Positions 6,052 through 13,368 of a stretch of DNA of 35,919 bases are shown here, piece by piece (position 1 is the stretch's first letter; the number at the start of each line of letters is the position of its first letter). Source of the DNA: Deferribacteraceae bacterium (GTDB lineage: Bacteria; Chrysiogenota; Deferribacteres; Deferribacterales; JAISNW01); NCBI GenBank assembly GCA_031256375.1, contig JAIRQX010000052.1, positions 1 through 35,919 on the forward strand, written 5' to 3'. The position numbers and the translations under genes were made by a program. The notes beneath the pieces were generated by a model. It was not told where the DNA came from and made no database searches. It saw only the letters and a program-made list of their open reading frames with translations.

Positions 6052-6884
6052 ACCGTTCCGTTGATCTCAGCTTCCGTCAGAACAACGCTTCCTTCTCCGC
6101 ACGCTATCTCGACGCCGTGATGCGTCTGTCCCAATATCTCTCCCGGACGACCTTGCATCCCAGCCCATTTATCGCATTTAGCATTCCACACTGTTATTTT
6201 TTTGCCGTTATGATAGAAATAACTGCCGAAATACGGCTTTGAATAAGCACGGACTGTATTATAAACATATAACGCACAGGCATTCAGATCAAGCATCCCT
6301 GTGTGCCGTCTGCGCCGCTGAACATAAAATCCATCTGTCTCATCCTGCGCTTTCAGTTCAGGTTCTGCGCCGTCAGCAAGCTCTGAAATCCATACCTGAG
6401 CTTCTTTTACACACGCACGGATATATTCTTCCGTTGTATGATCGTGTTCTATACGAATTTCACACTGATACGCCACAGGTCCGGCGTCAATATGCCCGTT
6501 TTCCCTGTACAGCGTTACGCCCGCCAAAGAAACGCCGCGCAGAAACTGCTCGCTAACAGCTCCATACCCCCTGTAACGGGGTAAAAGCGAAAAATGGAGG
6601 TGGTAAACAGGCGCGCCGGGATCTGTGTTGTGAAAAAAATCTTTCGTCCATTCCGCGCAGATTATCAGATCGCCGCTTCGCACATTAACTTTAGAACTGT
6701 CAAAAGAACGCTCGTGAATGTATTTATATGGGTAACCTTCCCGCAAATATGCCTGATCGGAAATTCTCCGCGTGGCGTTTAAAGCGTAAGTATATATAAC
6801 AGGGGTTATTCCCCGTTCTTTTAACGCATTACAAAGCAGTTCCCCTGCAAACCCTTGGGTAAAAAGCAGCAGACGCCTTTTCAT
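6012..6884 (-). CDS. Formyltransferase-family protein (Fmt/ArnA-like), substrate unknown
   Basis: This 290-residue protein resembles folate-dependent formyltransferases. The segment HLHFSLLPRYRG matches the active-site NxHxSLLPRxRG, then GVTLYRENGHIDAGPV matches the GVTL...D.G segment with the catalytic Asp. A C-terminal OB-like region with KPYFGSYFYHNGKKITVW follows. The catalytic His and Asp are kept, but the usual Asn two residues before the His is His here. The start overlaps the stop of the STT3 gene by four bases, so the two are translationally coupled. That linkage suggests a role in modifying an amino sugar for a glycan, as in ArnA-type sugar formyltransferases, rather than being the cell's Met-tRNA formyltransferase. 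The substrate is inference, and loss of the Asn could also mean low or altered activity. Confidence 0.65.
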   Translation of the reverse strand: MKRRLLLFTQGFAGELLCNALKERGITPVIYTYALNATRRISDQAYLREGYPYKYIHERSFDSSKVNVRSGDLIICAEWTKDFFHNTDPGAPVYHLHFSLLPRYRGYGAVSEQFLRGVSLAGVTLYRENGHIDAGPVAYQCEIRIEHDHTTEEYIRACVKEAQVWISELADGAEPELKAQDETDGFYVQRRRRHTGMLDLNACALYVYNTVRAYSKPYFGSYFYHNGKKITVWNAKCDKWAGMQGRPGEILGQTHHGVEIACGEGSVVLTEAEINGTVYKFDEITNCFNV

Positions 6885-8944
6885 TGCGCCGTATGTCTGC
6901 TTTTTACATGAAAAACACGCACAAGGGGATATATGTTTATTACCTCTTCATAAAAAGCGGGATCATATACGCCAAGCAGATAAAGCTGTACAAACGCGCT
7001 TCGGTACTCCTTTTCATTCATTATCAACAGCGCGTAGCTTTTGCCTGCGCTTTGCAGCAACACCGCATACAGAGATGAGGCAAAATCAGTTTCCTGTTCT
7101 TTTACCAGATAACCGCCTTCCACATAATCAATCTTTTTGAGAGGGACGGAGGAGTTCATTACGCCGAGCATAGCGTCTATATTCAAACCTCCGCATGAAA
7201 TTACCCTGCCGTTGTCGGCGGTACACTGGCGAATATCCAGCATACCTCCCCTTGCGCCCTGACTGGAATTAATTATATCCCAATCCCCTATCTCTTTAAT
7301 AGCTCCGTACTTCCATATCATATCATCTGTAAAAGATATGTATATCTTGTCATTTTTTAGCGGCTCATCGTAATTTTCCACATCTTTTAATACTTCCGCC
7401 GCCGTTATCCGCCTTTTTCGCCGTTTCTCTTCAATAGCGCCGGTACCGTTATTGGTAATATACGATATATATCTGACAGTCTCTTCGGGGGGGGCAAGCA
7501 TACTGCGGGCTATAAGCCATGTTTTGGACGTGTTCTGACACATCCCGTCATGGAATGTGGCAAGCCCTGCCTGAGCCTCAATCGCAAGCCCGTAGTCCCA
7601 CCATGTGTAAACTGCGGATCCTTGCGGCAGAGTTTCCCTTAAAAGATTAAATGTCCTATACATATTCGTTGGTATGGAAGGCGGCGGGGTTGCATAAAAC
7701 GGCAACTTTTTCCCCTGCTGGTTGAATGACATTATGAATCCTTGAGGTGTAGGCATTATTGCAATCACAAGTATAAACAAACCGACAGCGCCGTAAGCGA
7801 CCAGCGCTTTAACCCATTCCCGGCTTATTAAGGTTGATGGGATTTTGGTGACGGCGTAATTAAGCAGATAACCTATCCCCGCGCCTAAAAACGGGACAAG
7901 GAATATAACAAAACGTCCGGATGATTTGAATATCAAAAGACCTATTACAAGTATAGGTAAAAGGGGAAACACTCTTTTTGGGCTGCGTACCGCCATGACA
8001 ATAAACGCGCCTAATGCGAAAAACACAAAGACAGGATGTATAAAAACACCTTCCAAAATCTGTCCTATAGGGACTTTTGCTTCGCTTACCGTTTGATAAA
8101 CGTTAGGAAAACCGTCGGAGAATGAAACCGGTGAAAACAGATAGCTGTTTAAAATCGAGTACAGATTTAAGAGCGAGTCTTTAATAAAGAGCGGGTTTGA
8201 AAAAATAATGTAAACGCCGGCGGCTACAGCGATATTTTTTGTTTTATGACCGCAAATAATCAGCGTAAGTACGAGAACACCACCAAAGACCAATATGAAA
8301 GCGGGATGAAAATACCACCATGTGAAAAAAAGCTGCGTCAGCCCTGCGGCTGCAGAAAATGCCCACACTTCTTTATTTTTCTTCTTCTCTGAAGCAATCA
8401 TTATGAAAAGAGCCGTTAAAAACAGGAAAAACAGTGTCAGGCAGTCGGTTTTAGTGCGTCCCGCAAGGGTACGCCCATAGTATGTACTGGCAAATGTTCC
8501 GCAGAACGCGCCCAATATCCCCGCGGCAGGGTAGCCAAGCCTGTAAAAGTAAATACAGAACGGAAATATAAAAAGTCCCGCCAAAAAAGGGATCAGGCGC
8601 AATCCCGCCTCGTAAAGATTGCCGTCAAAAAAGTATGACAATTTAGCCAGCATAACAGGTAGCAACGGTACGGGCGTATCCCGCTGCCAGCCGTCTGGAA
8701 AGTACATAAGACTGTCTTTTTCAGAGGCAATATATTCCCCTTTCCGGAACTCTTCCCCTATTCTGATCCACTTATAGGCGTCAAGTGTCGTTACCATTGG
8801 AATATTATCCACATAATATTGCTCCGGATAGGTATTCCAGCCTTTTGTTATCTGCATTAGTCTGGACGTGGTTGACGCTACGTAAACAGCAAGTAAAATC
8901 AAAATAAAAATAATTAACTTTGCATATTTAGAAATATTAAACAT
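6881..8944 (-). CDS. STT3/PglB-type oligosaccharyltransferase
   Basis: This 687-residue membrane enzyme probably transfers a lipid-linked oligosaccharide to asparagine on exported proteins. About a dozen hydrophobic segments occupy residues 8-400, followed by a soluble C-terminal domain. Visible motifs are an acidic residue in the first periplasmic loop (D55 in LDAYKW), a degenerate second acidic motif (RTKTD, about 163-167, where PglB has DTD), TVSE at 285-288 in the place of the catalytic Glu loop, and WWDYG at 448-452. A DDMIWK segment may serve as the MI motif. It starts seven bases after the pepA stop, with GAGGT overlapping that stop, and ends overlapping the formyltransferase-like gene. 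The fold is clear; the acceptor sequence and glycan are not known. No other pgl genes lie in the window. Confidence 0.88.
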   Translation of the reverse strand: MFNISKYAKLIIFILILLAVYVASTTSRLMQITKGWNTYPEQYYVDNIPMVTTLDAYKWIRIGEEFRKGEYIASEKDSLMYFPDGWQRDTPVPLLPVMLAKLSYFFDGNLYEAGLRLIPFLAGLFIFPFCIYFYRLGYPAAGILGAFCGTFASTYYGRTLAGRTKTDCLTLFFLFLTALFIMIASEKKKNKEVWAFSAAAGLTQLFFTWWYFHPAFILVFGGVLVLTLIICGHKTKNIAVAAGVYIIFSNPLFIKDSLLNLYSILNSYLFSPVSFSDGFPNVYQTVSEAKVPIGQILEGVFIHPVFVFFALGAFIVMAVRSPKRVFPLLPILVIGLLIFKSSGRFVIFLVPFLGAGIGYLLNYAVTKIPSTLISREWVKALVAYGAVGLFILVIAIMPTPQGFIMSFNQQGKKLPFYATPPPSIPTNMYRTFNLLRETLPQGSAVYTWWDYGLAIEAQAGLATFHDGMCQNTSKTWLIARSMLAPPEETVRYISYITNNGTGAIEEKRRKRRITAAEVLKDVENYDEPLKNDKIYISFTDDMIWKYGAIKEIGDWDIINSSQGARGGMLDIRQCTADNGRVISCGGLNIDAMLGVMNSSVPLKKIDYVEGGYLVKEQETDFASSLYAVLLQSAGKSYALLIMNEKEYRSAFVQLYLLGVYDPAFYEEVINIYPLVRVFHVKSRHTAQ

Positions 8945-10583: not shown

Positions 10584-11483
10584 TTAACTACTGTGCAAAA
10601 ACTGATCTATATTTTGCACTACTAGGTTGTAATCGCTTTGGTAATTTTTTAATGTCTGGAAGTTGGTTATCAGCGCTTCTATCACTTCACTACGATTGTT
10701 TTCGCTTGCGCCTAAATGGTAGAAATGATTTTTGGTATCCACATTAAATTTATTCCATAATAAATCTATATACTTATTATGACGATACTTATTATGATGC
10801 CATGTAGATAATATGAATCTTGCTTTTTTCTTGCTCAATATCTCAAATAATCGTTGTTCATTAGATTCAGTCCAAGAATTAAAATAATCAGAATATCTGT
10901 CTATATATGGTGGATCGCAATATATCAAATCTGTCGGTGTCGCTTTTATTATAATATTCTCACAACTATCACAGACAAAAGACCAATCGTTCAACTGGAT
11001 GAGAACAGATATATTTTTAACTTGATTGGTAATTTTTGTAATATATGCTTGTGCAAATCTATTTGGTTTTTTGCAAAAGGGAACGTTGAAACCACCTTTT
11101 CCATTGAATCTAATCATACCATTAAAACAACTTCTATTTAGAAATAAAAAATCCAATGTATTTGGTTTTTCGTTAAATCTTTCCCGAACCTGTTTATAAT
11201 AATGTTCACCCAATTCAAATAATTTTTCCCCTTCATAAACAAGGAATTGTTTTACTTTTTCATGATTTATAATGCCATTTTTAATGTCATTATAAAAATT
11301 TATTAAATGCGGATTTGTGTCGCTAAATACAGCTTTTTTAGGTTGAATGTTAAATCCAACTACGCCAGAACCCATAAATGGCTCATACCAAATGTCATAA
11401 TTATTTGGTACTTTTTGATATATCCAAGCAACAAGTTTTGACTTTATTCCTTGACATTTAATAGGTGGGATAATTATATTCAT
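10584..11483 (-). CDS. Adenine-specific DNA methyltransferase, M.EcoRV type
   Basis: This 299-residue protein is an alpha-class (Dam-like) N6-adenine methyltransferase. It has the SAM motif FMGSG (36-40), the catalytic DPPY (190-193) and long stretches resembling M.EcoRV as I remember it, such as [39 protein letters not shown] and [10 protein letters not shown].EcoRV modifies GATATC, so this protein probably does too. The ATG follows the endonuclease stop codon directly, which points to coupled translation. The DNA is much richer in A+T than the flanking genes (one 60-base line sampled is 30 percent G+C), a sign of horizontal acquisition. It has the full length expected and no visible damage, so it is probably an active, now solitary, methylase. 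Confidence 0.93.
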
Positions 11484-12005
11484 TTATTTAATGCCACGAT
11501 ATTTTAAAAAATTGCCCAACTTGGTTATCTTTTTAGTCTTGCCAGTTTCATCAGTAATAGTTATTTTTCCGTAATTCATCCAATCGTTATATGGAAACTG
11601 TATATTTTTCTTGGATTCTCTGTTAATAAAATATTCTCCATGAGAGCCTAAAGTAAATCCATTGCAATAATCAGGACGTGTTGGGTTTACATAAGTCGTT
11701 TTTATATCAACAGCATATTTTATCTTTTTATTTTTTCTATAAACAAATGACATATCAGGATAATAATTCTGGTGATCTGTTAAAACGATATCAAAACCTA
11801 ATTTATCTGCGAACTCTATTATTTTTGGGAAAATATGAATTTCAAGAATTTTCGATACGATTTTTGTATCACTGGATATGGTAAATATCTTTTGATTTAC
11901 ATCTATAAAGCCCTTAACTGCCCATTCACCAGCATTATCAGACACATATTTTTGCAATTCTTTGCAAAATTGAGAAAACTCATTTTCAAATACAGTTTTA
12001 TTCAT
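11484..12005 (-). CDS. EcoRV-type restriction endonuclease with a probable internal deletion
   Basis: The 173-residue product resembles R.EcoRV at both ends. The N-terminal part has GFIDVNQKIF, SSDTKIVSKILEI, YYPD (D84) and DIKTTY (D100, K102), the catalytic PD...DIK set, then GEYFINRESKKNIQFPY. The C-terminal NDWMNYGKITI...NFLKYRGIK resembles the end of R.EcoRV (DYWRNYE...WIYRGRK). The roughly 80-90 residues normally between these parts, which hold the DNA recognition loop, are absent, and the frame is intact across the junction. R.EcoRV has 245 residues. I placed the start at 12005 (ATG) because TAGGG lies eight bases upstream. The product is probably inactive. This comparison is from memory of R.EcoRV, not a computed alignment. 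Confidence 0.82.
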   Translation of the reverse strand: MNKTVFENEFSQFCKELQKYVSDNAGEWAVKGFIDVNQKIFTISSDTKIVSKILEIHIFPKIIEFADKLGFDIVLTDHQNYYPDMSFVYRKNKKIKYAVDIKTTYVNPTRPDYCNGFTLGSHGEYFINRESKKNIQFPYNDWMNYGKITITDETGKTKKITKLGNFLKYRGIK

Positions 12006-12055
12006 TCTGACTACCCTAAACTGTGTCATTATAAGGAAAAAATAAAATAAATCAA

Positions 12056-12065
12056 TCACAATTCC
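12056..12065. repeat. Left copy of 10-bp target site duplication
   Basis: TCACAATTCC sits immediately outside the left terminal inverted repeat of the MITE-like element and is repeated exactly at 12193-12202. This is the expected mark of transposition into a 10-bp staggered cut. Confidence 0.75.
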
Positions 12066-12192
12066 CACGCCCGTTTCATAAATTTTTTGAGAACTGCGTA
12101 AAATCAGCATTTACGCAAGACAAACATAAAAAATCTATACAGCTACAAATAGCGTATTTATGCGGCTTACGGAAGTTTATGAAACGGGCGTG
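12066..12192. mobile_element. MITE-like non-autonomous element (127 bp)
   Basis: The element is bounded by perfect 17-bp inverted repeats, CACGCCCGTTTCATAAA at 12066-12082 and its reverse complement at 12176-12192. A 10-bp direct repeat flanks it exactly on both sides. It is too short to encode a transposase and contains an internal hairpin, GCGTAAA (12096-12102) with TTTACGC (12110-12116). It sits about 60 bases upstream of the EcoRV-type endonuclease start. Ends plus target duplication are strong evidence of transposition. A 10-bp duplication is known for some IS4-group elements, but the parent family cannot be named from this alone. Confidence 0.8.
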
Positions 12193-12202
12193 TCACAATT
12201 CC
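12193..12202. repeat. Right copy of 10-bp target site duplication
   Basis: TCACAATTCC abuts the right terminal inverted repeat and is identical to 12056-12065. Confidence 0.75.
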
Positions 12203-12270: not shown

Positions 12271-13368
12271 TCAGCGATATAATTCCCTTACAATATATTC
12301 CCCGACGCGCAGAGGGGTTACCCTGTTCCTATATTCAGGGTTTTTATCTATAAATTTATCTATCTCGTAAAGGGGATAAAGTACCGGTTCGTTGCCAAGC
12401 TGTATTACGCCCAAGTGCATAGGTATGGTTGTTTTTGCTCCTAAATCATCCACAGCCCTGAAAAATTCGCTCACATTCTGGTGTGCGTAATGCATAAACC
12501 ATCTGGGAAGATAAGCGCCGACTCCCAAAAGGGCGTAATCAATGGAAAATTTCTTTCCGAACTCTTTATATCCTACAAAATAACCGCTATCGCCGGAGAA
12601 ATAAATACTGCTACTGCCTTCTATCAAATAACCGCCCCAAAGGGTTGCGCCCGCCGGCTGCCATAAACGCCGCGACCAGTGCTGAGACGGCAGAAATGTG
12701 TACTTTATACCGTCAATTACCTTCTCTTCCCACCAGTCAAGCTCATAAACCCTTTTTGCTCCCAGTTTTATGAGAAAATTCTTCAGTTTCAGCGGAACAA
12801 TAAATACCGCATCCTTTTTGATAAGCTCTTTTACCGAGTATTCGTCAAGGTGGTCGTAATGATTATGGCTTATCAGCGCCACCGGTTTTTCAGGCGTTTT
12901 ATTGAAATCAAAAGCGGTTTTAACCTTTTTTTTCACTATAAGCGCTCTGCCGGAAAAAAACGGATCAGTGAAGATAACGCTGCCGTCCATCTGTATTATG
13001 AATGAAGCGTGCCCCGCAAAGGAAATTCTGTTTCGGGAGTTATCGGAAAGATACTCATAGCTGTTTTCCACAGCTAGGTATTTATCAACCGGAAAATCCG
13101 AAATATTGTCGCGCTGTACGGCTCTTCTACTAAGCGCCTTCAGTATTCCGCTACCAGCCTCTCTGGGCATCCACGGATTAAAGAACAAGCCGTTTTCATC
13201 TGTGTGATCCGCGTAAAGAAGGGAGGCGTCAGCAGACAGAACTTTTTTAGTCCATACATCCTCGTCAAACGGATGTTTAGCACACCCTGTAATAGGGATA
13301 GATACGGCGATCAGAATTAATAGGAGCAAAAGCATAAAATTGAAACGCTCTATTTTATTCAACGACAA
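12271..13368 (-). CDS. Lipoprotein with metallo-beta-lactamase fold (NAPE-PLD/UlaG-like)
   Basis: The product is a predicted lipoprotein of up to 365 residues. A hydrophobic stretch (about residues 12-27) ends in the lipobox ITGC, so Cys29 would be lipidated and the protein anchored in the envelope. The mature part has the metallo-beta-lactamase signature SHNHYDHLD, then QHWSRR and YFSGDSGY, a combination seen in the NAPE-hydrolysing phospholipase D-like group. It is likely a metal-dependent hydrolase; the substrate is unknown. The start is uncertain: TTG at 13368 gives a basic n-region, whereas the first ATG, at 13335, gives a signal peptide with no positive charge. The start overlaps the upstream PPOX-like gene by 14 bases, so both are probably co-transcribed. 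Confidence 0.82.
   Translation of the reverse strand: MSLNKIERFNFMLLLLLILIAVSIPITGCAKHPFDEDVWTKKVLSADASLLYADHTDENGLFFNPWMPREAGSGILKALSRRAVQRDNISDFPVDKYLAVENSYEYLSDNSRNRISFAGHASFIIQMDGSVIFTDPFFSGRALIVKKKVKTAFDFNKTPEKPVALISHNHYDHLDEYSVKELIKKDAVFIVPLKLKNFLIKLGAKRVYELDWWEEKVIDGIKYTFLPSQHWSRRLWQPAGATLWGGYLIEGSSSIYFSGDSGYFVGYKEFGKKFSIDYALLGVGAYLPRWFMHYAHQNVSEFFRAVDDLGAKTTIPMHLGVIQLGNEPVLYPLYEIDKFIDKNPEYRNRVTPLRVGEYIVRELYR

Follow-up and report, generated by a model that had tools for sequence, protein, structure and literature searches.

The ISAs1 family comprises elements with a DDE transposase that carries a PF13808 N-terminal domain. Transposase-less derivatives are described for other families, among them MIC231, the mobile insertion cassette of IS231, which occurs as a group of cassettes in Bacillus. 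MITE-type elements of Tn3 are termed TIMEs (PMC4133298). For ISAs1 itself, our literature search returned no paper centred on derived MITEs and none giving the length of the target duplication; as no published value was found, we measured this length on plasmid copies. An intact ISAs1 element on a Vibrio diabolicus plasmid has the ends CAGGGAAAATTCATGA/CACGGAAAAATCATGA and an exact 10-bp duplication, TGGTGAATAT, and an intact element on a Xenorhabdus bovienii plasmid has the ends CAGGGGTTACGCATGA and likewise an exact 10-bp duplication, GGGAGACACC. ISAs1 copies from Fischerella and E. coli yielded no clean pair of ends with a duplication.

We compared with these elements a short, geneless insertion in the window, that is, the whole 35.9-kb stretch of DNA analysed here, which corresponds to contig C47 of a 1.95-Mb draft genome (128 contigs, 95.6% complete). 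A preliminary description had proposed a 127-bp MITE with perfect 17-bp terminal inverted repeats and a 10-bp target duplication, and its coordinates proved correct to the base (Table 1). The right terminal repeat is the exact reverse complement of the left one (17/17), and TCACAATTCC is repeated without mismatch (10/10) precisely at both outer ends and nowhere else in the window. Searching the window for inverted repeats with at least 14 perfect bases and arms 40–600 bp apart returned only that of the element. When the window was resampled 30 times under an order-1 Markov model, 25 of the resampled sequences lacked such a repeat; the inverted repeat is thus unusual but by itself not decisive. 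The decisive insertion signal is the exact, window-unique 10-bp repeat at both outer ends, since a flanking repeat of this kind is expected by chance in about 4^-10 of cases per given pair of ends. At 127 bp, the element has the size of a MITE and is too short for a transposase; the single listed open reading frame reaching into it extends the neighbouring endonuclease frame upstream. Its perfect ends and perfect duplication, together with dispersed copies on two further contigs, C28 and C39, bear out the proposed MITE-like insertion and its clean target duplication.

Table 1. Features of the element and the adjacent restriction-modification operon in the window.
Feature	Position	Strand	Basis
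Left target site duplication TCACAATTCC, 10 bp	12056..12065	.	sequence
Non-autonomous miniature element (MITE), 127 bp, geneless	12066..12192	.	sequence and homologous copies in the same genome
Left terminal inverted repeat CACGCCCGTTTCATAAA, 17 bp	12066..12082	+	comparison with 22 bases of the C2 remnant
Right terminal inverted repeat, perfect copy of the left	12176..12192	-	sequence
Right target site duplication TCACAATTCC, 10 bp	12193..12202	.	sequence
EcoRV-like restriction endonuclease, internal in-frame deletion	11484..12005	-	Pfam and alignment to the G016 homologue
D12-class adenine-N6 methyltransferase, partner of the endonuclease	10584..11483	-	homology
Promoter-like site of the endonuclease gene, TTGATT, 16 nt, TATAAT	12028..12055	-	10/12 consensus matches and position

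The predicted RNA fold of the element is much more stable than that of shuffled sequences (z = -8.7), as expected from its inverted ends, and a strong hairpin is predicted on either strand. Such a fold would also suit a hairpin RNA gene, or another structural element that merely resembles a transposon. We regard this as highly improbable, given that an RNA gene would not be expected to have dispersed copies or to be bordered by an exact 10-bp duplication, and that the sole Rfam match, MIR2606, reached 26.1 bits against a cut-off of 139.7 bits, a chance-level score.

A search of the genome for further copies, as the preliminary description had proposed, revealed diverged relatives. Using BLAST, we identified a second copy at C28:36468-36579, upstream of a tRNA-Val gene, which is 74% identical to the window copy over 122 bases and at which no target duplication was seen. 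With a sequence profile built from the window and C28 copies, a third copy of 77 bp was detected at C39:454-530 (E = 3.7e-6), flanked by its own imperfect direct repeat, CGCGTTATTA/CGCATTATTA (9/10). The three copies have inner sequence in common besides their ends, and they are the only clear copies of the subfamily in the draft genome. The 17-bp terminal repeat, allowing at most one mismatch, occurs at 7 sites in the genome, as compared to none for a reversed-pattern control; further matches with 2–3 mismatches are present on C111, C11, C70 and similar contigs. Considering its perfect ends and perfect duplication, the recent origin suggested earlier is plausible for the window copy, which probably represents a fairly recent insertion, while the other copies are old.

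BLAST searches with the element in 60 genomes, among them the one that carries it, detected copies in no other genome, and no match was obtained in the phage sequences searched. None of the order's 45 further genomes has the locus, and no empty site was seen. Several candidates were discarded: four weak matches in other genomes from a profile search over the order (E = 0.005–0.01), which left the terminal repeats uncovered and were treated as noise; matches to the terminal repeat in genome G001 and in a viral contig, which look like ordinary coding sequence; and plasmid matches to 32 bp in Acinetobacter (E = 0.3).

The ends, which the preliminary description could not assign to a named family, are matched by an ISAs1 remnant in the same genome. 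The sequence at C2:1156-1172 (CATGCCCGTTTCATAAA), identical to the terminal repeat at 16/17 positions, closes a decayed transposase gene, and the left terminal repeat together with the next five bases agrees with the right end of this remnant at 21/22 positions. Pieces of the remnant match the Pfam domain DDE_Tnp_1_assoc (PF13808, E = 2.2e-11) and the NCBIfam ISAs1 model NF033564 (E = 2.1e-4 and 8.9e-4), and in tblastn they share 44% identity with annotated plasmid ISAs1 transposases, with E-values down to about 1e-6. The N-terminal piece also gave a weak NCBIfam match to IS1380 (E = 0.005), with a slightly better score than to ISAs1. Of the 314 positions of the ISAs1 model, the remnant covers only the start, positions 176–229 and positions 282–312, and another ISAs1-like remnant, located on C65, contains a stop; the assembled draft genome accordingly contains no intact ISAs1 transposase. 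The search proposed earlier for a full insertion sequence with the same ends led to the decayed transposase gene on C2, an intact counterpart being absent from the assembly. The left end of the C2 remnant recurs on short elements on C77 (76 bp) and C116 (105 bp), the latter additionally containing an internal ISAs1 fragment, and as single ends on C71 and C63. A scan of genome contigs with the transposase remnant returned one distant match, in a Fibrobacteres MAG, with ends that were not definable.

Beyond about 22 terminal bases, comparison of the element interior with the C2 remnant gave a local score of 20 (shuffle mean 14, maximum 27), and the corresponding profile comparison gave E = 0.06. 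Because no significant similarity links the interior to the remnant, the case for ISAs1 membership is carried by the ends and by the length of the duplication. The pattern CA.G.......CAT.A is common to the left ends of the Vibrio and Xenorhabdus elements and to the window element, and with end pattern and duplication length both in agreement, the window element is consistent with the ISAs1 family. Its dissimilar interior could also point to a MITE moved by a transposase of another family with duplications of about 10 bp, for example an IS231-like IS4 member, comparable to MIC231; IS231-type ends start CATGCCC..., similarly to those of the window element, and are accompanied by duplications of 10–12 bp. 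However, this very genome has an ISAs1 remnant bordered by the same end, and the intact ISAs1 elements show duplications of exactly 10 bp, making mobilisation by a transposase of another family improbable.

In sum, the element is most likely an ISAs1-family MITE that was mobilised in trans and whose parental copy has decayed or is unassembled. Two ends recognised by the transposase would be retained with no transposase gene between them, and an ISAs1-family transposase would have moved the element in trans, joining it to target ends cut with a ten-base stagger. Gap repair by the host should then have produced the 10-bp duplication at the landing site, directly upstream of where the low-GC restriction-modification operon probably has its promoter. 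The donor copy would since have decayed, or else be absent from the draft assembly. More tentatively, and with a rather low probability, the element may belong to an undescribed ISAs1-derived MITE subfamily that is still mobile in the lineage, despite the recognisable ISAs1 transposases being dead. Ongoing mobility would imply that an active copy escaped assembly or that a different transposase cross-mobilises the element.

The genome holds several decayed IS remnants, and a number of separate observations concern their surroundings. At a contig edge on C59 (L022, positions 1-444), an ISAs1-type left end precedes the C-terminal part of an IS630-family transposase (NF033545, E = 3.5e-14). By eye, two similar short sequences on C71 (L018) and C77 (L019) adjoin ISAs1-type ends, with GGATTGCTTCG-type repeats. 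Also by eye, the contig ends of C44 (L028), C48 (L029), C56 (L030) and C2 (L003, positions 1-466) enter a repeat with an IS110-like reading frame; the C2 piece (1-466) gave no Pfam or NCBIfam match, and CACGCCCGTTTCTTAT is found at the junction of the repeat on C44, C48 and C56. Since some IS110 relatives target transposon ends, ISAs1-type ends may have served as the insertion site of the IS110-like repeat.

As described earlier, the element lies just upstream of the endonuclease gene, at a distance of 60 bp from the start codon at 12005, which is backed by alignment to the homologue in genome G016. That homologue, adjoining a different gene, is the only other EcoRV-like gene in the genomes of the order. 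The endonuclease matches Pfam PF09233 (E = 1.8e-62) and comprises 173 residues vs 259 in G016, the alignment showing one gap of about 88 residues. Residues matching the catalytic PD...DIK motif in the alignment are retained, and the gap takes out the counterpart of the EcoRV stretch GSGNTTNIGS, which we take to be the DNA-recognition loop. Owing to the loss of this segment, the endonuclease is, judging from its sequence, probably inactive, unless the deletion is an assembly error. With the methyltransferase apparently intact, the restriction system is possibly decaying to a lone methyltransferase. The GC content of the two genes (29%, compared to 42–43% in adjacent genes) suggests that the operon was horizontally acquired. 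Elsewhere in the window, at 6881-8944 (- strand), we noted by eye a large membrane protein resembling STT3/PglB-type oligosaccharyltransferases, next to a formyltransferase-like gene.

The preliminary description had further suggested that the element might supply or block a promoter for the restriction genes. The only well-placed promoter-like site for the endonuclease gene is located wholly outside the element, its -35 box abutting the left target duplication; because chance alone predicts 1.9 such sites in the region, this assignment depends chiefly on position. Within the element, neither a promoter-like site directed at the endonuclease gene nor a terminator-like site was found. The element sits between the stop of the upstream gene (12271-13368) and the likely promoter of the operon, and this location, with a duplication touching the -35 box and a strong hairpin on either strand, might allow it to alter operon expression, either because upstream control sequence was displaced or because the operon was insulated from readthrough of the upstream gene. 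We give this possibility little credence: the predicted promoter is intact and outside the element, no site for such an effect was found within it, and one of the two products that would be regulated has probably lost its activity together with its recognition loop. With the likely promoter outside the element and the endonuclease probably inactive, a regulatory role in restriction is unlikely, and the earlier notion of a switch for these genes is corrected accordingly. Most likely, the element is neutral at its site, neither gene nor promoter having been broken by the insertion.

The element is an ordinary kind of mobile DNA, and no general principle hangs on it. With it, a little-studied lineage gains a small ISAs1-type MITE family, and the element's clean ends and recent-looking insertion are usable for strain comparison. 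Compared to the ISAs1 family, the window element has the same 10-bp duplication and end pattern; whereas ISAs1 elements measure about 1.2–1.3 kb and include a transposase, it spans 127 bp, is devoid of a transposase and has an interior not recognisably derived from the remnant. Other families likewise have MITEs and mobile insertion cassettes that are short and transposase-less, with inverted ends, a target duplication and several diverged copies, but these differ from the window element in transposase family and end sequence.
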